Shown here piece by piece: positions 45,059 to 55,268 of a stretch of 64,000 bases of DNA (the first letter of the stretch is position 1; every line of letters starts with the position of its first letter). Under the pieces are notes generated by a model. The model did no database searches. It was not told where the DNA came from and was given only the letters and a program-made list of their open reading frames with translations. The position numbers and the translations under genes were made by a program. Source of the DNA: an uncultured beta proteobacterium (GTDB taxonomy: Bacteria > Pseudomonadota > Gammaproteobacteria > Burkholderiales > Burkholderiaceae_E); the NCBI GenBank assembly GCA_903934295.1, contig CAIZNI010000036.1, positions 1 through 64,000 of the forward strand. Reading direction: 5' to 3'.

Positions 45059-46390
45059 ATGGCACGCAAATTCTTCGGTACGGACGGCATTCGGGGTCGG
45101 GTCGGTGAGTCGCCGATCGTCCCCGACTTCGCACTGCGTCTGGGTTATGCCGCCGGCCGGGTGCTGACCCAGGGCGGTGGCACGCGCCCGACGGTGCTGA
45201 TCGGCAAGGACACGCGAATCTCGGGCTACATGCTCGAGGCGGCACTCGAGGCAGGGTTCTCGGCTGCCGGTGTCGATGTCCTGCTGTCGGGCCCGATCCC
45301 GACGCCGGCGGTGGCCTATCTGACCCGGGCGCTGCGCCTGTCGGCCGGCGTGGTCATCAGCGCCTCGCACAACCCGTTCGAGGACAACGGCATCAAATTC
45401 TTTTCCGGCGATGGCAACAAGCTGCCCGATTCGGTCGAAGAGCGCATCGAGGCGGCGCTGGACGAACCGATGGGCTGCGTGGCTCCCGCGCAACTGGGCC
45501 GTGCGCGGCGCATCGAAGACGCAGCCGGCCGCTACATCGAGTTCTGCAAGAGTTCGTTCCCGTTCTCGATGGACCTGCGCGGGCTGAAGATGGTGGTCGA
45601 TTGCGCCCATGGCGCCGCCTATCACACCGCGCCGCACGTCTTTCACGAACTGGGCGCCGATGTGATCAACATCGGCGACAAGCCCAATGGCCTGAACATC
45701 AATGACGAGGTCGGGGCGACTCATCCGGAAACGGTGGCGCGGGCGGTTCGCGAGCACCATGCCGACATCGGTGTGGCACTCGATGGCGATGCCGATCGGA
45801 TCGTGCTGGTCGACGCCGACGGCCGCATCTACAACGGCGATGAACTGCTCTATGTGATCGTGGCCGATCGCCTGCGCGATCGCGAGGTCGCGGGCGCGGT
45901 CGGCACGCTGATGTCCAATCTCGCGCTCGAGCAGGCGCTGGCTGCCTTGGGTGTGGATTTCGCGCGGGCGAAGGTGGGCGACCGGTACGTGCTGGAGGCC
46001 CTCTATGACCGCGGCTGGATGTTCGGCGGTGAAAGCTCCGGCCACCTGCTGTGCCTGGACTGCCACACCACCGGCGACGGCACCATCAGCGCGTTGCAGG
46101 TGCTTTGTGCGATGCGGCGCAGCGGCAAGACGCTGTCCGAGCTGACTGCCCGGCTCAGCCTGTTCCCGCAGAAGCTCATCAATGTGCGGGTTGCCAAGGG
46201 CTTCGACTGGCAGAACCATGTCCCGCTGAATCGCGCCCGCAGCGAGGTCCAGGCCCAACTGGGTTCGCAGGGTCGCATCCTGATCCGCCCGTCGGGTACC
46301 GAGCCGTTGCTGCGGGTGATGGTCGAAGCGCGCGACGGCGATCTGGCCGATCGGGCGGCCCGTTGCCTGGTCGATGCGATCGCCGCCTGA
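45059..46390 (+). CDS. glmM: phosphoglucosamine mutase
   Basis: Enzyme of 443 residues that interconverts glucosamine-6-P and glucosamine-1-P for UDP-GlcNAc synthesis. The start [20 protein letters not shown] is canonical, the phosphoserine loop is [15 protein letters not shown] with catalytic Ser near 103, the metal loop is [11 protein letters not shown] and the sugar-binding loop GGESSGHL. It ends 34 bases before the first tRNA gene. Confidence 0.96.
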
Positions 46391-46424: not shown

Positions 46425-46501
<77 letters not shown>

Positions 46502-46553
46502 GTCCCGGCAGTACCGGCCAGACCCTGTGCTTTGTCCCTGTCCGACGGGAAAT

Positions 46554-46630
<77 letters not shown>

Positions 46631-46675
46631 GTTTGATGGTTCGCGGTGGTTTTTGATCTGCCGTGTTCCCCGGTG

Positions 46676-46751
46676 GTGGCTGTAGCTCAGTTGGTAGAGT
46701 CCTGGATTGTGATTCCAGTCGTCGTGGGTTCGAGTCCCATCAGCCACCCCA
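46676..46751 (+). tRNA. tRNA-His (GTG anticodon)
   Basis: The cloverleaf has acceptor GTGGCTG pairing with CAGCCAC. A G at 46675 can act as the -1 residue pairing with the discriminator C. The anticodon stem-loop is CTGGA-TTGTGAT-TCCAG (GTG) and the T arm GTGGG-TTCGAGT-CCCAT. CCA is encoded. The leftmost genes of an integrated element start 372 bases downstream, so its 3' end is the likely attachment site. Confidence 0.95.
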
Positions 46752-47123
46752 CTGTTTTACCTTATAAATCAACAAGTTAGCGCTATAGACTCCTCTCCGT
46801 GGGCCAAATTTGGGCCAGAATCGCGGAACGGGAGCCCCGCAAGGCGCGCGTCCGAGGCAGGCTTTGGGGCCTGTCGGCGTTCACCAAAACGTCCCCATCA
46901 AGCCGTCTGCTGAGCAGAAGGCGACGGGTCAAGCAGGGTCCTTCGCTGGCCCGGGCGGAATCGGGAGTGGCCGCCGTCTCGTTGACGGGTGCATCACGGT
47001 AATCGCTGCCTGCTCTCGCGGAGCGAGCGGTTCCCCGAAAGCGGTCGAGGATCAGACCCTCACGCCAGACCCGCTCTCACCTCTCGGGCCACGGTCAAAC
47101 CCGCAGCGCCCTTGGACCAGGCC
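46752..47123 (+). other. left end of the integrated element, no gene seen
   Basis: The 372 bases between tRNA-His and the integrase stop start with an AT-rich stretch (46752-46800) and a GGGCCAAATTTGGGCCA palindrome-like sequence at 46802-46818. No credible coding sequence is seen. The att core is expected at or near the tRNA 3' end, but the partner repeat lies outside the window. Confidence 0.5.
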
Positions 47124-48290
47124 TCAGTCTTGCAAGTGGGCCAGAGGCTCCGCCTTGCTCGCGCGAGTCCGCGCAATCGACGCCTCCAGTCGCTCCATCT
47201 CCCGGTCGTTCTGCTCGCCGTCGAGCCACTTGGCGTAGGTCCGATGGAACATCTCGACCGAGTGGCCAAGCTGGCGCGCGCAGAAGGCTGGATTCATGCC
47301 TGCCATCAGCATCACCGTGGCGTAGGTGTGCCGCATGTTGTAGGGCCTGCGGTAGCGGATGCCGAGCCGCTTGAGCGTCGGGGTCCAGAAGCTGCGCCGG
47401 AACGCCCGCTCGTCCACCCATGGTTTTCCGAATCTCGGATCGTTGAAGACTGCGCCGCCTGCGAGCTGGGTGTGCGCCCGCTGGCGTTGCAGGGCATCGG
47501 TAGCCCGGCTGTTCAGTTTGATGGTCCGGGCAACGTTCGTCTTCGTCCGATCCTTGTGAACGCCCCTGACCAGTGCCTCAGCGATCAGGGCGGTGCCGCT
47601 GGCCATGTCGACGTTCTCCCATGACAGCGCGAAGAGCTCGGAGGTTCTAAGGCCAGTCCAGAACCAAAACTCGACCATGTTGGCCACCTGGCCCGGGTGA
47701 CGAGCATTGAGGTCTGCCAGGACGGTGTCGAGTTCTTCTCGGGAATAGGGGTCCGGGGGCTCCTTCTGGTGCCTGGCGCGAGGGATCTTTCCCGCTGGGT
47801 TGACCTGCAGGATTCCGTCGGTGACGGCGAGCTCGAGCGCTTCCCTCAGGACGCTGACGTAGTTGTTGACGGTCTTGCCGGAGAGATCGGGGCGGCGGGC
47901 CAGCACCGTGAGGATCTGGCTGTGTCGCAAAGCCCGCAGTGTCTTGTCGCCGATCCCCTGCTTCCAGAAGCGAATCGCGCTCTCGTACGATGCTCGTGTG
48001 CTGGCCTCTATCCGCTGGCTCGCGAGCCAGGCATCAAGCTGTGTGCCGACCGTCAGCGAGCTGTCCGCTCCGGCTGACGGAAAAGTCTCCGCCATGTTGA
48101 AGATGCCAAGCGCGATCTTTCGCTGAATGTCATCTGCCAGCCGTCGCGCGAACTTGAGGTTCGCAGCTGTCGGCAGCAGAGGAACACCGGCCTGCGTGAT
48201 GCGCTTGACGTGGCGTTTGCCGTCGAAGGTAAAACGCACGCGAATGCTTTCACCATGAACCTCGACGTTTCCTAGCCCTTTTCGACCCAT
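47124..48290 (-). CDS. int: tyrosine recombinase integrase
   Basis: Site-specific recombinase of 388 residues. The N-terminal arm-binding domain (GNVEVHGESIRVRFTFDGKR) is of the DUF3596 type found in phage and element integrases. A core-binding SAM-like domain and the catalytic domain follow: Arg in TGLRTSELFALSWENVD, Arg-His in YNMRHTYATVMLMAG, and the Tyr nucleophile in LGHSVEMFHRTYAKWL. It points toward the tRNA-His gene, the usual position for an enzyme using that tRNA as attB. The ATG at 48290 overlaps the upstream excisionase-like gene by 19 bases. Confidence 0.92.
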   Translation of the reverse strand: MGRKGLGNVEVHGESIRVRFTFDGKRHVKRITQAGVPLLPTAANLKFARRLADDIQRKIALGIFNMAETFPSAGADSSLTVGTQLDAWLASQRIEASTRASYESAIRFWKQGIGDKTLRALRHSQILTVLARRPDLSGKTVNNYVSVLREALELAVTDGILQVNPAGKIPRARHQKEPPDPYSREELDTVLADLNARHPGQVANMVEFWFWTGLRTSELFALSWENVDMASGTALIAEALVRGVHKDRTKTNVARTIKLNSRATDALQRQRAHTQLAGGAVFNDPRFGKPWVDERAFRRSFWTPTLKRLGIRYRRPYNMRHTYATVMLMAGMNPAFCARQLGHSVEMFHRTYAKWLDGEQNDREMERLEASIARTRASKAEPLAHLQD

Positions 48291-48604
48291 GCCTGGTACC
48301 CCTTCATCGAGATGAAGATTCCCCCGTCGGGGGAGCGCCGGTACTCTCGGCCGTCCAACCATTTGCCGTCTTCAATCTTGCGGCGAATGGCCTTCTCGGT
48401 GAGCCCGGTGATGTACGAAGCCAGTTGGATGGTGACGTAAGGCGCGGGTGCGAGATGCACCGCGGGTGCACTGGCCCACGCCCGCTGATGCGTCGGCGGA
48501 GGACCGTGGCCTTGTCCGTCTGCGGGAGCGGCTTCCCTGGACACGCGGGCTCCTGAAGGAGCCCGGGACTGCCCGTCATTGTGCTCCAGTTCGTCGCTCT
48601 TCAT
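48272..48604 (-). CDS. excisionase-like (Xis) small DNA-binding protein
   Basis: The C-terminal 55 residues read YVTIQLASYITGLTEKAIRR then KIEDGKWLDGREYRRSPDGG, a winged-helix excisionase pattern; the N-terminal half is low in complexity. The ATG at 48604 (MKSDELEHN) is chosen for AGGA about 5 bases upstream; ATG at 48742 is possible and would still lie downstream of the 28-bp motif. It overlaps int, so the two are coupled and probably act together in element excision. Confidence 0.75.
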   Translation of the reverse strand: MKSDELEHNDGQSRAPSGARVSREAAPADGQGHGPPPTHQRAWASAPAVHLAPAPYVTIQLASYITGLTEKAIRRKIEDGKWLDGREYRRSPDGGIFISMKGYQAWVEKG

Positions 48605-49126: not shown

Positions 49127-49717
49127 ATGGCTCTCAAAGAAGAGCAGGGGCTGGGCAATTGGGAAATTGCCACTGCGAAAAAGCTGGTCAGTGAATACCG
49201 GCGCAAACACAGGATCCTGGAGCGCGAGGAGTTCGAGGATCTGATGCAGGAGTGTCTGGCGCACTGGATCGTGGCGCGGCGGCGAATACCGCCAGAGCCA
49301 GACCCACGACCACCGGTGTCGTACATGGCACAGGTACTCCGCAACAAACTTACGGACATGGTCCGTGAGATGACCGCAGACAAGCGCGCCGGTAACCCCG
49401 GCGCGCTTTCGCTTGATGCGCCGCTCGATGGCACAGAGGACGGCATCACGCTCGGCGACGTTCTGGCCGATGAGCAGGCGGACCCCGCCGTCTCGGGTGA
49501 TATGGACAGCCGACACGCCCGCATCGATCTGGCTCGTGCGATGGCGCTGCTGGCCCCGGCCCAGCAGCGTCTGTGCCAGTTGCTGGGCGAGGAGGGGCTC
49601 TCGATCAAAGAGGCAGCCGGGCGGCTCCGAATCCCGCGCGGCACGCTCTACGAGGAGATCAAGCGCATCCGCCGGATCTTCGACCAGCATGGCCTGGGCA
49701 ACTATTTGAAGGACTGA
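49127..49717 (+). CDS. sigma-70-like RNA polymerase sigma factor of the element
   Basis: Protein of 196 residues with the layout of a small sigma factor. A region-2-like segment (EREEFEDLMQECLAHWIVAR) lies near residue 35, then a variable linker with SLDAPLDGTEDGITLGDVL, as sigma factors often show between regions 2 and 4. A region-4 helix-turn-helix (LSIKEAAGRLRIPRGTLYEE) lies near residue 160. The ATG has GGGAGGGG about 4 bases upstream. Its stop is directly followed by one copy of the 28-bp motif, and the other copy lies 334 bases before its start. A role in driving both flanking modules is inferred. Confidence 0.75.
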   Translation: MALKEEQGLGNWEIATAKKLVSEYRRKHRILEREEFEDLMQECLAHWIVARRRIPPEPDPRPPVSYMAQVLRNKLTDMVREMTADKRAGNPGALSLDAPLDGTEDGITLGDVLADEQADPAVSGDMDSRHARIDLARAMALLAPAQQRLCQLLGEEGLSIKEAAGRLRIPRGTLYEEIKRIRRIFDQHGLGNYLKD

Positions 49718-49778: not shown

Positions 49779-50624
49779 ATGATCACCTTCACCATCGCGA
49801 GTACCAAAGGGGGCGTCGGCAAGACGACGCTCACCGCCAACCTGGGCGCACTGCTGGCCGACATGGGCCTGCGCGTGCTCCTGGTCGACGCCGACGTGCA
49901 GCCGTCGCTGTCGAAGTATTTCCCGTTGTCACCCCCACAGCCGGTCGCGGGGCTGACCGACGTGCTCGTCCGCGGCGAGGTGGTTGCGGCGAGCATCACG
50001 CCGACGGTCTTTCCCAACCTGCATCTGGTGGCCTCCGATGATCCCGAGGGTCGGCTGCCGAACTGGCTGCTGGGGCGGATCGACCGGGGTTTCCGGCTGC
50101 GCCACGCGCTGCGCGCCGGGCTCGTTCCTTCGGCCTACGACTGCGTGCTGATCGACACACCGGGCGCCATCGGGCCTCTTCAGGATGCGGCCGTCATGGC
50201 GGCCGATGTGCTGGTGTCACCGATCACGCCCGAGATCCTTTCGGCGCGCGAGTTCCGCGACGGCACGATGGAGTTGCTGGCTCGGCTGGAACCCGGCAGT
50301 GCGCTCGGGGCACCGCCCGCGCCGGTGAAGGCCGTGATCTATCGGCAGGACCGCACCGCCGATGCGCGGCTGATCGTGGCCGGCATTGCCCGCGAGTTCG
50401 ACCGGCCGCACGAGCGGGTGTCGCTGCTCAAGAACGTGGTGCCGCATGCCAAGGCCTACAAGGAGGCCGCGACGCTGCGTGTGCCTGTCCATCAGCACGA
50501 GCGACGCCGAGAGGGCACGATGCCCAGCGCCTGGTCGGTGATGCACTGCCTGGCGTGGGAGCTGATGCCCAGCCTGCGCGGCATGCTTGCCGACGGGCGC
50601 CGGGTGCAGGGGGTGTCGTCATGA
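49779..50624 (+). CDS. parA: ParA-family partition ATPase
   Basis: Deviant Walker ATPase of 281 residues. It begins MITFTIASTKGGVGKTTLTA with the KGGVGKTT box at residues 10-17, then VLLVDADVQPSLSKYF and CVLIDTPGAIGPLQDAAVMA. The first gene of the element's rightward module, it should maintain or segregate the excised form with the ParB-like protein. Its stop overlaps the parB start (ATGA). Confidence 0.93.
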   Translation: MITFTIASTKGGVGKTTLTANLGALLADMGLRVLLVDADVQPSLSKYFPLSPPQPVAGLTDVLVRGEVVAASITPTVFPNLHLVASDDPEGRLPNWLLGRIDRGFRLRHALRAGLVPSAYDCVLIDTPGAIGPLQDAAVMAADVLVSPITPEILSAREFRDGTMELLARLEPGSALGAPPAPVKAVIYRQDRTADARLIVAGIAREFDRPHERVSLLKNVVPHAKAYKEAATLRVPVHQHERRREGTMPSAWSVMHCLAWELMPSLRGMLADGRRVQGVSS

Positions 50625-51892
50625 GCAGCGGCAAGTCCGCGCTCGACGAGCGCAGCCGCCGCGTGGCGGAGTCCCTGTCCGTCGGCAACCCAAGTAACAA
50701 CGCACGCAGCCTGCCGCCGCAGGCCAGCCCGCGCTCCGAATGCCAGATCGAACTCGGCATCGATGAGATCCGCCCCTACGAGCACAACCCGCGCCGCACC
50801 AGGAACGCGAAGTTCGAGGACATCAAGGAATCGATCCGCGCCGGTGGGCTGCGCAGCCCGATCACTGTGACGCAGCGGCCTGGCGAGGCGCACTACATCG
50901 TCGAGTCCGGCGGCAATACCCGGCTGCTGGCCCTGCGGCAGCTCTGGGCCGAGACCAAGGATCCGCGGTTCCGTCGCCTGGTGGTGCTGTTCCGCCCATG
51001 GCGGTCGGAGACCCAGGTGCTCACCGCCCACCTGATCGAGAACGAGCAGCGCGGCGACATGAGGTTCTGGGACCGCGCCACCGGGATCGTGGCGCTGAAG
51101 ACCCGGCTGGAGGCCGAGCAGGGCAGGGCGCTGACGCTGCGCCCGCTGGAAGACGCCCTGCATGGCCTCGGCCTGGCGGTCAACACCGCCACGCTGGCCC
51201 TGTACCTGTATGCGACCGACCGCTTGCGCGCGCTCGGCGAGGTGGTGCCCGACCTGGCGGGGCTGGATGTGAAGACACTGCAGCCGCGCTTGAACGCGCT
51301 GCGGCGCTACGCCCATGCGCGGGCCGGCATCGAGGAGAACCCGCTGTATGACGAGATCTTCGAGCCCGTCTTCCGGACGATGGCAGGTTCGTTCTCGGTC
51401 ATGGCCACGGTAGAGGGTTGCGAAGTGGCGCTGGCGCGGCGGCTCGGCGAGTCGGTCGAAGTCTTGCGGCAGGCCATGTCGTCCGGGACCGCGCGACCGG
51501 ACTGCGACCTCCCGCGCGAGGAGTGCGAGCCGCGATCCGACTGCACCCTCGGCCCGGCCGTCGATGGGCCGGCAGCCGCCATTGCGGACTTCGCCCGTAA
51601 GGCGGGCTTCGATGCCGAGATTGCGCGCGATCCGGCGGCCGTCCTCGGCTGCCGCCTGCTCCCACTGCCGGAGTCGCAGCAAGCCGATGCGGGGAGGCGC
51701 CGCGCTTGGTCGGCGCTGGCCTTTCTCATCGAGCCCGATCGGAAGCCTCCACCTTCGGACCCGCCGCCACCGCCACCGCCTGAGTTCATCCGGTGGCTCG
51801 CCGACCCTGAGGACGAGACCGCTGCCGCCTTCCTGGCGCTGCTCGCCGCTCTTCGGCAGTCGCGATCGGTACCTGCTGGGGAGGCCACCTGA
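50621..51892 (+). CDS. parB: ParB-family protein of the integrative element
   Basis: Protein of 423 residues. The ParB/sulfiredoxin fold shows ELGIDEIRPYEHNPRRTRN, IKESIRAGGLRSPITVTQRP, YIVESGGNTRLLALRQLW and LTAHLIENEQRGDMRFWDRA. The C-terminal part is longer and divergent, with a poly-Pro stretch (PSDPPPPPPPEF) near residue 385. Features match the ParB of PFGI-1-type integrating elements. The start ATG overlaps the parA stop; its own stop overlaps the next gene. Confidence 0.88.
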   Translation: MSSGKSALDERSRRVAESLSVGNPSNNARSLPPQASPRSECQIELGIDEIRPYEHNPRRTRNAKFEDIKESIRAGGLRSPITVTQRPGEAHYIVESGGNTRLLALRQLWAETKDPRFRRLVVLFRPWRSETQVLTAHLIENEQRGDMRFWDRATGIVALKTRLEAEQGRALTLRPLEDALHGLGLAVNTATLALYLYATDRLRALGEVVPDLAGLDVKTLQPRLNALRRYAHARAGIEENPLYDEIFEPVFRTMAGSFSVMATVEGCEVALARRLGESVEVLRQAMSSGTARPDCDLPREECEPRSDCTLGPAVDGPAAAIADFARKAGFDAEIARDPAAVLGCRLLPLPESQQADAGRRRAWSALAFLIEPDRKPPPSDPPPPPPPEFIRWLADPEDETAAAFLALLAALRQSRSVPAGEAT

Positions 51893-52434
51893 TGCTGCCG
51901 CTGCTTGACACGCAGGTACGCCTCGTCCTGCTCAACCACGTCACGGTGCGCCTCGCCGGTGCCGGGCCGGAGGAGCTCAGTGCTGCCGGCCTGGCCGGCG
52001 AAATGCTCGACAGCCTGAGGCGACTCTCCGCGACGGACCTCAACCGCCTGGCCTCGATGCGCAGCGTCAAGATCGGGGTGGCCGTCGACGGCGACGCCTT
52101 GCAGGCCGGTCTGCGCATCGTGTCGCTGGTCAATGAAGCCAACGCGCTTCAGACCTACTTCATCCGACATGGCGCCTCCACGGCGCTGATGGCTCGCCTC
52201 TTCAAGGTCCGGCGCAAGCTCACCCTGCGTCTGCGTCGCGAACTCGGCGTGCACCGGCCATCGGGCCGGGTCGCGCTTCCCGACCATGCCACGCGCGAGC
52301 GCATCTACCTGGCGTGGCGGGCGATCGGTGAGCCTGCCCCGCGAGCGCGGTACTACCAGTTGCACCAGGCCTTCCCGTATCTGCCCATCGCCGTGCTGGA
52401 AGTGGTGATCCGCGACTTCGAGGCGATGGCATGA
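51892..52434 (+). CDS. DUF2857-like element protein
   Basis: Protein of 180 residues beginning MLPLLDTQVRLVLLNHVTVR. A likely helical N-terminus is followed by NALQTYFIRHGASTALMARL and a basic stretch (KVRRKLTLRLRRELGVHRPS). Position between parB and the replication-type gene fits the DUF2857 protein of PFGI-1/SPI-7 type elements. Its function is unknown; the basic helices suggest nucleic-acid contact. It starts in the parB stop (TGATG) and overlaps the next gene by 4 bases. Confidence 0.72.
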   Translation: MLPLLDTQVRLVLLNHVTVRLAGAGPEELSAAGLAGEMLDSLRRLSATDLNRLASMRSVKIGVAVDGDALQAGLRIVSLVNEANALQTYFIRHGASTALMARLFKVRRKLTLRLRRELGVHRPSGRVALPDHATRERIYLAWRAIGEPAPRARYYQLHQAFPYLPIAVLEVVIRDFEAMA

Positions 52435-52815: not shown

Positions 52816-54273
52816 ATGACGGCCCCGGGTAGCCCTGAAACCCCGCCAGAGCGCTTCGACGCCGCCGGGGAAGGGCAGACCCCTGCCGACACGGTGAGCG
52901 AGCTTCTGACCACGATCTGGCCGCTCCTGGGCCGTCACATCGCCTTCCACCGCCGGCTGGTCGACCTCACCGGCAACGTGAAGGCAGCCTTGCTGCTGTC
53001 GCAGGCGGTGTACTGGACCCGACACGGCCGCGACATCGCGCAGCGCGACGGCTGGTTCCACAAGACCGCCGAGCAGTGGGAGCTCGAGCTTGGACTGTCT
53101 GCCCGCGAGCAGACGAGTGCCCGCGATTTGCTGCGTACCCGGGTGCTGCTCGAAGAGCAGCGCCTCGGCCTGCCAGCCCGGATGCACTTCCGCCTCAATC
53201 TGGAGGTGCTCGGTCGTCGGCTGGCCGAACGGGTGGACGCCCGGCTTCTGACCGCCCCCGGCACCGACTGGCATAACCGGATGCTGATCGCCGAGCTGCT
53301 GGGCCCGGCGGTGGCCTTCCATCGCGCCCTCGCGGCGGTGGCCGGCGGTATCCATGGCGGGTTGCTGTTGTCCCGTGCGCTGCACCTCACCCGGCTTCAG
53401 GCACGGCGCCAGCCCGACCTCTGGATTGCCGACTCCGCCGCCCACTGGTTCGAGGAACTGGGGCTGTCGCGGCGGGAGCAGGAGGCCGCCCGCCGCGACC
53501 TGCTGCAGATCGGCGTGTGGGAGGAACGGATGGCGGGCATGCCGTCGAGCCTCCTCGCGCGGCTGCGACTCGAGGTGCTGGAGGCGCTGCTCGGTGGCCG
53601 TTCCGACAGCCTGCTGGCAGTTCCGGCGGGTTCCGCTGCAGTCCGCGGCAACGCCACAGCCAGCGTGTCGCCAAACGTCGAAACAAGAGTGCGGCATTCC
53701 CACAGTCTTGTTTCGACGAAACCGCCAAGCTTGATTCGACAAAACAGCCATCAGTGTTCCGACGAAACCGCCATCCCCCATAAAGAACAGAGTACAGGTG
53801 ATTCACTACAACCACAGAACACGGTGTCACCGCCGGCCGGGGAGCCACCGCTCTCGGCGGCCGTAGGTGGTGGTGAAGCACTGATCTTCCCGGATCGGCT
53901 GCTGCCCCAGGAGCGAGACGCAGCCCAGCGGCTGCTGAGCCAGGTGGCCGACCAGCCCCAGGCGCTCCTCGACGAACTCTCCGGCCGCCTGCAGACCGAG
54001 CAGGTGCGCAGCCCGGTCGCCTACCTGCGGGGCCTGATCCAGCGCGCCGCGGCTGGCCAGTTCGTGCCAGAGCTTGCACCCCGCATTGCCGCCGAGCGCG
54101 ATCGCCTCCACCGGGAAGCAGAAGCCCGCCGGGCGCAGGACGCCGAAGAGCGCCGGCTCGCCGCCGAGCGTGCAACTCCCGAGTACCAGTTGCGCGAGCG
54201 CGAGCGCAGGCAGCGCATCAGCGAACTGCTGAGCGACATGCGCCGCCGCATCGGCACGCCGCCCGGGCGGTGA
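52816..54273 (+). CDS. STY4528-like replication protein of the element
   Basis: Protein of 485 residues. Two winged-helix-like modules lie at about 36-140 (FHRRLVDLTGNVKAALLLS, LSAREQTSARDLL, GLPARMHFRL) and 158-262 (FHRALAAVAGGIHGGLLLS, LSRREQEAARRDLL, GMPSSLLARL). A Ser/Thr/His-rich linker near 287-330 is encoded by a set of DNA repeats. The C-terminal domain (LLDELSGRLQTEQVRSPVAY) ends in a charged coiled coil. Position and layout fit the pathogenicity-island replication protein called STY4528. Replication function is inferred. Confidence 0.75.
   Translation: MTAPGSPETPPERFDAAGEGQTPADTVSELLTTIWPLLGRHIAFHRRLVDLTGNVKAALLLSQAVYWTRHGRDIAQRDGWFHKTAEQWELELGLSAREQTSARDLLRTRVLLEEQRLGLPARMHFRLNLEVLGRRLAERVDARLLTAPGTDWHNRMLIAELLGPAVAFHRALAAVAGGIHGGLLLSRALHLTRLQARRQPDLWIADSAAHWFEELGLSRREQEAARRDLLQIGVWEERMAGMPSSLLARLRLEVLEALLGGRSDSLLAVPAGSAAVRGNATASVSPNVETRVRHSHSLVSTKPPSLIRQNSHQCSDETAIPHKEQSTGDSLQPQNTVSPPAGEPPLSAAVGGGEALIFPDRLLPQERDAAQRLLSQVADQPQALLDELSGRLQTEQVRSPVAYLRGLIQRAAAGQFVPELAPRIAAERDRLHREAEARRAQDAEERRLAAERATPEYQLRERERRQRISELLSDMRRRIGTPPGR
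53677..53782 (+). repeat. 23-bp iterons inside the replication gene (candidate origin)
   Basis: Three direct repeats start at 53714 (CGACGAAACCGCCA), 53737 (CGACAAAACAGCCA) and 53760 (CGACGAAACCGCCA), spaced exactly 23 bp. An inverted copy of the upstream half, GTCGAAACAAG (53677-53687), pairs with CTTGTTTCGAC (53707-53717). A 41-base tract after the last repeat (53779-53819) is about 60 percent A+T in a GC-rich gene. The set looks like an initiator-binding array with a melting region. Origin function is inferred. Confidence 0.65.
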
Positions 54274-54353
54274 TGCCTGCCGCGGCACGCCCTTCATCCA
54301 ACAACGCCAATCGCGCCCCTGTCCCCGCAACCCATAGCCCTGAGGACCACACC

Positions 54354-55268
54354 ATGCCCACCGAAGACCTTCGAACCACCGTCGGCGCCGACATCGCAAC
54401 GAGCGAGAAGCCAGCAGGCGAACCCGCCCCGGAATCCCTTGCGAGCGGTAAAGCGCCCACCAGCACGCGCAGCCGCACCCGAAGCACCATCGGCCGGCTG
54501 GACGAGCAGGCGCCCGACGTAATGACGCTGCACACCCGCGAGGCCTGGCAGATGTTCACCGGTCGAAGCGCCGACGCCAGCGGCCAGACGCCGGCCATCC
54601 CGGGTGGTCGGCGCTTTGCCGCCGTGTTGCGGGCGATCTGGGCGCTCTCCGCCCGCGACAACCCCTACGCCGACTGGATCCTGATCCGGGTCACCCAGCG
54701 ACTGAGCGAGATCCGTGCGCAGATGTCCAGGACCATCGAGGCGCGTGAGGCCGAGCTGGAGCGACTGCGCAGCCGGGGTCTGAGCCTGTCGGTGCTGGCC
54801 TCTAGCCGGCCGGTGACGGTAGAGCTGGGCTTCCGCAGCCCCTACGGCTACGCCACCGCCGAGGCGATCGTCGAGTTCGACTACCACGTGCGCCTGGTGC
54901 AGACGCTGATGCTCAAGGACCGGTTGAGCGACGAGGCGGGGCGGGAGGCGATCCGGGAGATCGGCCGGGGGCTGCGCGCCCTGTTCCTGGAGCCCATCCG
55001 TTGGGAGCGGTCGTTGATGCGCGAGGAGATGTTGCCGCTGTCGCGGGCCGACTTTCTGCCTGGCGCCGCAGAGGCGGCACGAATGCGCGTGCAAGCGGCC
55101 GTGAGCCTGTTCGGCGAAGTGCCGCGCGCGGTCTTCACCGGCGAGGAGGCGCCCCGACACACCCAGCGCCGCGTCACCCCCACAGCGGCGGAACTCCGGC
55201 TGCTGCGCGAAGCATCGCTGAGCCCAGTGGCCGAACCGTCGGTGCCGGCCGAAGGGCAACTGCTGTGA
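54354..55268 (+). CDS. PFL_4669-type integrating conjugative element protein
   Basis: Protein of 304 residues. The core LHTREAWQMFTGR, AAVLRAIWALSARDNPYADW, VTVELGFRSPYGYATAEAIV, EFDYHVRLVQTLMLKDRLS and FTGEEAPRHTQR matches the family found after the replication gene in PFGI-1-type elements (TIGR03761). The N-terminal 50 residues are Ser/Thr/Ala-rich. The ATG at 54354 has AGGA upstream. Function unknown. Confidence 0.8.
   Translation: MPTEDLRTTVGADIATSEKPAGEPAPESLASGKAPTSTRSRTRSTIGRLDEQAPDVMTLHTREAWQMFTGRSADASGQTPAIPGGRRFAAVLRAIWALSARDNPYADWILIRVTQRLSEIRAQMSRTIEAREAELERLRSRGLSLSVLASSRPVTVELGFRSPYGYATAEAIVEFDYHVRLVQTLMLKDRLSDEAGREAIREIGRGLRALFLEPIRWERSLMREEMLPLSRADFLPGAAEAARMRVQAAVSLFGEVPRAVFTGEEAPRHTQRRVTPTAAELRLLREASLSPVAEPSVPAEGQLL

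Follow-up and report, generated by a model that had tools for sequence, protein, structure and literature searches.

A 23-bp repeat array inside a phage O-like initiator gene as a probable replication origin of an integrated proteobacterial element

How are integrated elements of the SPI-7, PFGI-1 and ICEclc kinds kept up once they have excised? In the accessible sections of the literature, origins (oriV) have been proposed from repeats, no Rep was recognised in PFGI-1, and the copying of ICEclc is linked to its relaxase. In PFGI-1, which is stated to encode no Rep protein, a putative oriV that includes four palindromes was placed immediately before PFL_4669 (2009 paper, PMC2647930, excerpts), and the ICEHin1056 islands were assigned a putative iteron-like oriV, called consistent with pKLC102, SPI-7 and PAPI (PMC2258188, excerpts). 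Because of these proposals, a candidate oriV at this place is prior art. The excerpts of the two papers contain no statement of repeats inside a likely initiator gene, and our literature search by family and gene names, as far as the retrieved texts extend, found no paper placing these repeats there. Here we describe a related element in which a repeat array lies within a gene resembling a phage replication initiator.

The stretch of DNA analysed, referred to as the window, comprises 64,000 nt of an uncultured beta proteobacterium (assembly GCA_903934295.1, contig CAIZNI010000036.1, positions 1 to 64,000; the contig ends at 70707). The chromosomal gene glmM ends at 46390 and is followed by a tRNA-Pro/Arg/His cluster, which together with the tyrosine recombinase gene (46425-48362) probably marks the integration end of an element. 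From there, the gene order is tyrosine recombinase, ParA, ICE-type ParB, DUF2857, a lone winged helix, the initiator-like gene, PFL_4669/AcaB, STY4534-like DUF3577, RadC and DUF932 (Table 1). The initiator-like gene occupies the position of the STY4528 family, between the DUF2857 and PFL_4669 genes. A Sigma-70/ECF-like gene upstream of parA (49127-49717) possibly regulates the module. The lone winged-helix protein matches the phage family phrog_9773 once (E 2.5e-24) and may regulate the initiator or compete with it; many relatives likewise have homologous modules upstream of the initiator gene. Among ten neighbouring proteins scanned, none matched a DnaC-like loader or DnaB. In a relative whose initiator gene is 95% identical (G444), TraC, TraF-like and TraD proteins over their family cut-offs are encoded on the same contig, 28-55 kb off, along with weaker TraG, TraH and TraN matches (L230-L233). 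This fits a conjugative element, suggesting that F-like transfer genes are joined to an SPI-7-like replication module.

Table 1. Coordinates of the features discussed (window numbering).
Feature	Position	Strand	Remark
Tyrosine recombinase	47124..48362	-	adjoins tRNA-Pro/Arg/His cluster 46425-46751
ParA	49779..50624	+	
ICE-type ParB	50555..51892	+	TIGR03764
DUF2857 protein	51892..52434	+	domain also in ICEclc BisC
Stand-alone O-like winged-helix protein, 124 aa	52431..52805	+	directly upstream of initiator-like gene
Initiator-like gene, 485 aa	52816..54273	+	two phage O-like winged helices, disordered linker, STY4528-like C-terminal domain
First winged-helix module	52906..53235	+	'replication initiation O-like', about residues 31-140
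Second winged-helix module	53278..53592	+	about residues 155-259
Degenerate 23-bp unit	53637..53659	+	offset -69 from unit 1, weakest of three
Degenerate 23-bp unit	53660..53682	+	offset -46, overlaps inverted arm
Inverted copy	53676..53694	-	pairs with 53700-53718; 19 nt, 89% complementary
Degenerate 23-bp unit	53683..53705	+	offset -23; dyad in several relatives, e.g. TGCGGGAATCCCACA in L027
Iteron unit 1	53706..53728	+	core GTTTCGACGAAAC, a dyad whose two 6-bp arms flank a single base
Iteron unit 2	53729..53751	+	
Iteron unit 3	53752..53774	+	
A+T-richer conserved element	53779..53820	+	AGTACA.GTGA.TCA.TACAACCACAG; candidate unwinding region
C-terminal domain and helical tail	53881..54252	+	residues 356-479; residues 348-426 align with STY4528 C-terminus
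PFL_4669 / AcaB-like protein	54270..55268	+	

The 485-aa product matches phrog_9773, annotated as 'replication initiation O-like', in two stretches (E 7.9e-40). These matches do not extend to the C-terminal half of O-like proteins, the best stretch covering only positions 9-109 of 288 of the profile. The N-terminal module matched 57 phage records, and among the 30 listed several carry the same O-like annotation. The C-terminal domain is homologous to the C-terminus of STY4528 (hhalign probability 98.5, 78 columns), and against the full family model (NF040582) the protein reaches 38.1 of the 130 bits of the cut-off, over residues 296-417 only. It is not a complete O protein, and formally it falls outside the STY4528 family. 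The name STY4528-like, given to the gene in the preliminary description, fits the C-terminal domain only, the score of the whole protein being far short of the cut-off. The comparison drawn there with the layout of phage lambda O has gained substance, as the N-terminal half is homologous to O-like proteins and the parallel no longer rests on layout alone.

In an AlphaFold model made from 18 input sequences (mean pLDDT 68.6, pTM 0.36; the domains are usable, their relative arrangement is not), the C-terminal part is helical and linker residues 267-353 have pLDDT below 50. The array is written in the codons of this predicted disordered linker, between the winged helices and the C-terminal domain. 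Foldseek found no match in the PDB at E 0.001 or better, and a sequence search of solved structures none up to E 1. Weak Foldseek matches to the deposited initiators 4pt7, 4pql and 5kbj (E 1.1-3.5), which we take to be RepA_N initiators, agree with an initiator role of the modelled protein and prove nothing.

The direct copies, some 800-950 bp into the gene, begin at 53709, 53732 and 53755; both spacings are 23 bp, and copies 2 and 3 are 84% and 95% identical to the first. TRF reports the same period over 53709-53775 (score 78). The segment 53677-53687 lies within the inverted arm and also pairs with 53730-53740 at 91%. In 50-bp windows spanning the repeats and the following stretch (53700 to 53824), G+C is 0.48-0.50; it falls there from about 0.70, and most of the gene has 0.62-0.82. 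The three direct repeats with an exact 23-bp period, the inverted copy at 53677-53687 and the A+T-richer tract right after the repeats, all noted in the preliminary description, are thus confirmed. The locus combines iterons with an adjacent A+T-richer region, as expected of an oriV, and the iterons lie within the gene, as in phage O-like initiators. An exact DnaA box (TTWTNCACA) has no match in the window, where only 0.5 would be expected by chance; such boxes are absent from some oriV. Taking these features together with the comparisons below, we consider it quite probable that a vegetative (theta-type) origin lies within the gene of its own initiator, as in lambda O and pSK41 rep, and that the array forms its iterons.

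Two features go beyond the earlier observations: the tight conservation of about 53779-53820 and degenerate units between 53637 and 53705. The latter emerged from a search with a weight matrix whose training set was limited to units 1-3 from 12 relatives. Among about 200 offsets, the next best forward positions were -46 and -23, and -69 ranked ninth, after 90, -45 and 14; mean scores at -46, -23 and -69 were -7.4, -9.2 and -15.9, compared with -30.9 (SD 7.8) elsewhere. These peaks indicate that the array seems to reach upstream to 53637. On the reverse strand, the best position was -40 (-6.9), which is the inverted copy. A 15-nt repeat with 46-bp spacing (53645-53659 and 53691-53705) is a partial trace of the upstream units. 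In the relative L024, both AGTACA repeats of the A+T-richer element read ATTACA.

We compared the spacing of the array with that obtained after synonymous-codon shuffling. In the window gene, 1 of 300 shuffles reached the observed autocorrelation (spacing 17-30), and in its linker at 23 bp alone 2 of 300 did so. Homologues were drawn from genome contigs (25 loci) and further genomes, and 33 gene stretches were reduced to 21 non-redundant ones, a set without the loci whose match is confined to one end of the protein (such as L026, L029-L051 and L057-L066). In the linker quarter, 20/21 genes pick 23 bp as the best spacing of 16-40, compared with 0/21 in their first half; synonymous shuffling by itself yields 23 bp in 5.3/21, since the protein partly mirrors the DNA. 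The exception is L095, without 23-bp signal (224/300 shuffles reach the observed value), and signals are weak in L010 (54/300), L013 (79/300), L015 (23/300) and L025 (15/300). A whole-gene test (spacing 17-30) gave weaker results: two or fewer of 300 shuffles reached the observed value in 16/30 ICE genes, compared with 15 to 290 of 300 in the other 14, namely the clades L010-L015/L053/L054 and L017-L020/L055, and L025. L013, L017, L018 and L025 pick another spacing in this test. Among O-like genes beyond the close ICE relatives that were examined individually, a 22-23 bp spacing is present in L028, L031, L092, L093 and five phages, weak in L094 (47/300) and absent from L095 and from L029 and L030, which have an O-like N-terminus. 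L041 (904-1890) has a different N-terminus, a C-terminus like that of the window gene and 23-bp repeats inside the gene (0/300 shuffles), and is a possible third type of cassette.

Since the array is written in codons of a predicted disordered linker, the repeats might be a by-product of coding, arising from codon bias or from a linker of low complexity, and the DNA itself would have no role. The 23-bp signal that survives synonymous shuffling would fit this explanation, but the period is not a multiple of 3. Substitution patterns also speak against it. In clade A (seven close relatives), synonymous divergence (pS) is 0.144 and 0.138 in the winged helices, 0.028 in the array, 0.017 in units 1-3, 0.000 in codons 322-335 of the A+T-richer element, 0.215 in the linker after these codons and 0.072 in the C-terminal domain; the corresponding non-synonymous values (pN) are 0.018 and 0.024 for the winged helices, 0.042 for the array, 0.055 for units 1-3 and 0.009 for codons 322-335. 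In clade B (six), pS is 0.076 in the array, compared with 0.118 and 0.134 in the winged helices, and 0.000 in codons 322-335; the linker after the array, at 0.05, lies below the array itself. In clade D (four), the array has a pS of 0.113 and units 1-3 of 0.027, compared with 0.263 and 0.226 in the winged helices, with 0.058 in codons 322-335. The drop over the array is thus five-fold in clade A, the closest, and about two-fold in the two other clades, while pN rises from the winged helices to the array in each of the three clades. Overall, sequence comparison indicates that the array DNA is held more tightly than its protein needs. The preliminary description had proposed comparing homologues for a retained 23-bp spacing and a linker protein that is not retained, and both are found: the phasing persists in 20/21 genes while the linker protein drifts (clade A pN of 0.042 in the array and 0.018-0.024 in the winged helices). 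As phage genes with other core sequences keep the spacing too (see below), we regard a mere coding by-product as hardly credible.

The units also show signs of turnover. In a comparison of 10 of the 12 matrix relatives (9 in the permutation), within-gene likeness of units was reached by 1/5000 re-pairing permutations. Yet a given unit is on average slightly more alike between genes (0.672) than different units are within a gene (0.640), and concerted change is therefore only partial. In L021 and L024, the cores are altered in the units counted, with within-gene likeness of 0.74 and 0.70 compared with 0.58 to the same unit elsewhere. L023 (5454-6789) holds two units and L025 (3924-5278) one, having lost one and two, respectively; their tblastn pieces are frame-shifted as losses of 23 and 46 bp predict. 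Assembly error may be the source of these losses, and because the frame shifts midway, the shuffle controls of both genes are imperfect. In view of the weaker whole-gene result and the incomplete concerted change, we reduced our confidence in the origin reading slightly, to the level given above.

The same arrangement recurs in phages. From the best 80 of 263 viral relatives we obtained 50 non-redundant O-like genes, to which the counts out of 50 below refer. The best spacing (range 16-40, without shuffles) is 23 bp in 44/50, with other core sequences than in the window; of the other six genes, one picks 22, one 18, two 24 and two 39. Relative to the end of the matched domain, the start of the best 23-bp match lies at -18 to 98 bp in 43/50 genes and at 331-402 bp in 7/50. 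With the range widened to 12-40, 23 bp is best in 33/50 and 12 bp in 15/50, and in 26/50 the 23-bp array is reached by 0/60 synonymous shuffles; shuffles alone give 23 bp in 7.8/50. In the 600 bp after these genes, 23 bp is picked in only 2/48. The 12-bp arrays that are strongest in 15/50 (L117, L118, L150, L171 and others), such as TACAGAGATTAC, exceed all 60 shuffles in 12/15, and in several viral genes a 12-bp array follows the 23-bp units. In the five named phages examined, the spacing is 23 bp in X29, BcepIL02, CF63a and Ssp-JY37 and 22 in TRS1 (0 to 9 of 300 shuffles).

In lambda O, the annotated iterons are spaced 20, 24 and 23, and a low-G+C stretch follows them. Like lambda O and the genes of phrog_9773 and phrog_678, the window gene has an N-terminal DNA-binding domain, iterons within the gene and a separate C-terminal part, and its spacing resembles the 20-24 bp of lambda and the 23 bp of the viral genes (44/50 from the best 80 of 263). 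In contrast to these phage genes, its winged helix is duplicated in one chain, with a third copy alone upstream, its C-terminal domain is STY4528-like, and it lies in the ParA-ParB-DUF2857 module of an integrated element.

In classic STY4528 genes, both the N-terminus and the array are different, the latter consisting of 15-17-bp dyads such as GTTCGGAATCCGAAC in the linker region of the gene. We analysed 27 of 30 such genes (L191, L192 and L198 were dropped as redundant), whose reading frames were partly picked by script; that of L185 looks like the wrong strand. A dyad array is present in 16/27 at two or fewer of 100 shuffles, located at 0.46-0.67 of gene length in 15/16 (that of L187 lies near the gene end), and the gaps between dyads are most often 33 or 44-45 bp (22/47). 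By a stricter dyad count, 0/40 shuffles match in only 8/27 genes. Two to seven near-perfect dyad copies lie inside the classic gene in L067-L072, L074, L186, L194, L195, L197, L200 and L201. An earlier test for a 22-23 bp spacing had found no significant signal in 10/10 classic genes. The array type thus tracks the N-terminal domain, with 23-bp units accompanying O-like modules and spaced dyads the classic STY4528 N-terminus.

This co-variation bears on whether the repeats are instead bound by the element's ParB, as a centromere, or by a BisDC-like activator whose genes lie just upstream. The neighbouring genes do encode a ParB of ICE type and a DUF2857 protein, and the same domains occur in ICEclc, the ParB domain in BisD and DUF2857 in BisC (PMC7423338, excerpts). 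However, ParB and DUF2857 genes also precede the classic gene, whose array is of the other type, and the phage O-like genes carry 23-bp arrays too. No ParB or DUF2857 annotation was found in five phage loci of about 5.3 kb each, in which many genes are labelled 'hypothetical'. Within the element part of the window, TTYSGACGAAACC has no further match at two or fewer mismatches, a pattern that also misses unit 2. We therefore consider such binding sites very unlikely.

The PFGI-1 palindrome CTGAGTTCGGAATCCGAACTCAGT, as given in the accessible part of the source, contains the dyad found inside classic STY4528 genes, from which we infer that the repeats of PFGI-1 itself lie inside its likely initiator gene. 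Like the oriV proposed for PFGI-1 and for the pKLC102, SPI-7 and ICEHin1056 islands, as far as the excerpts describe them, the window array lies just upstream of PFL_4669. It differs from the PFGI-1 type in the N-terminus of the surrounding gene and in having 23-bp direct units in place of dyads mostly 33 or 44-45 bp apart. These relationships would fit a modular organisation of the initiators of SPI-7/PFGI-1-type elements, in which a DNA-binding domain and its own sites are exchanged as one cassette before a shared C-terminal domain. The cassette of the window lineage would then be of phage O type with a duplicated winged helix, and the missing Rep of PFGI-1 would be the product of the gene containing the proposed oriV. 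We hold the chances for and against this proposal to be about even.

Two plasmid systems provide precedents, as described in the accessible parts of the respective papers. In pSK41, the experimentally worked case, the N-terminal domain of Rep binds four Rep boxes inside rep, the ori-encoded linker can be deleted, and the C-terminal domain contacts DnaG; between pPR9 and pSK41, a block of about 500 bp comprising the N-terminal domain and the origin differs, and the pPR9 N-terminal domain resembles a putative phage replication protein (PMC5703833). The window gene likewise combines N-terminal DNA-binding modules with repeats inside the gene, as in pSK41 and the chimeric pPR9. Unlike these RepA_N plasmids, the element is proteobacterial and has ParA/ParB, and the RepA_N domain is absent among Pfam matches of the window protein up to E 0.01. 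The second precedent, which lacks iterons, is RepC: repABC replicons have the order ParA-ParB-initiator and an oriV inside the initiator gene, with no iterons found in p42d repC (PMC3155836, excerpts). The window element shows the same order, with a putative oriV inside the initiator gene, and differs from p42d in possessing iterons. A faint resemblance of the protein to the RepC C-terminus (PF11800, E 0.0015; hhalign probability 62, 41 columns), below the RP-C_C cut-off (19.2 of 32.6 bits), leaves kinship with RepC only suggestive.

Plasmids carrying related genes were also inspected, three records being examined in full of the 27 and 33 with a match. Burkholderia glumae p48s4p carries a window-type gene with 23-bp units; it was rejected as a case in which an STY4528-type gene is the sole Rep, as a second ParA/ParB pair and an HTH protein are present. 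Pantoea pNBBC01-4 was set aside likewise, having another 'replication initiation protein'. For Citrobacter pRHBSTW-00903_3, an incomplete gene table lists no other initiator. Cumulative GC skew of this plasmid, with its minimum at 587 and maximum at 69062, does not point to the gene (64108-65346) and gives no support.

A further explanation takes the repeats as operators. The O-like protein, or else the 124-aa winged helix, would use them to regulate its own gene or incompatibility, and replication of excised copies would start at oriT and depend on the relaxase. In ICEclc, deletions of traI and oriT1 diminished the replicating cells, that is, those with more than three ICEclc foci (PMC6561031, excerpts), and the arrays are weak in two clades of relatives, both as this explanation would allow. 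On the other hand, the array lies far inside the gene, a low-G+C, synonymously frozen element follows it directly, and the same layout recurs in phage O-like genes. We consider this explanation unlikely, and the two modes of replication, from an origin in the gene and from oriT with relaxase, may coexist.

If the array is an origin, the phage O-like winged helices would bind the 23-bp units, the two modules in one chain possibly acting as a built-in dimer on each dyad. Strain in the resulting protein-DNA complex would open the conserved A+T-richer element that adjoins the units on their downstream side, and recruitment of host replication proteins or the helicase would fall to the C-terminal domain. 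Such an origin would be used after excision of the element, and the linker protein would largely be a by-product of the DNA.

Our results tie a proposed origin and its likely initiator to one gene with exact coordinates, and link these elements to phage replication genes. Were the DNA-binding domain and its sites exchanged as a single cassette, an element could switch its replication specificity in one recombination step. If the origin reading is true, the 23-bp spacing, which most of the tested O-like genes share, would also be an aid in finding the origins of uncharacterised phages and islands.
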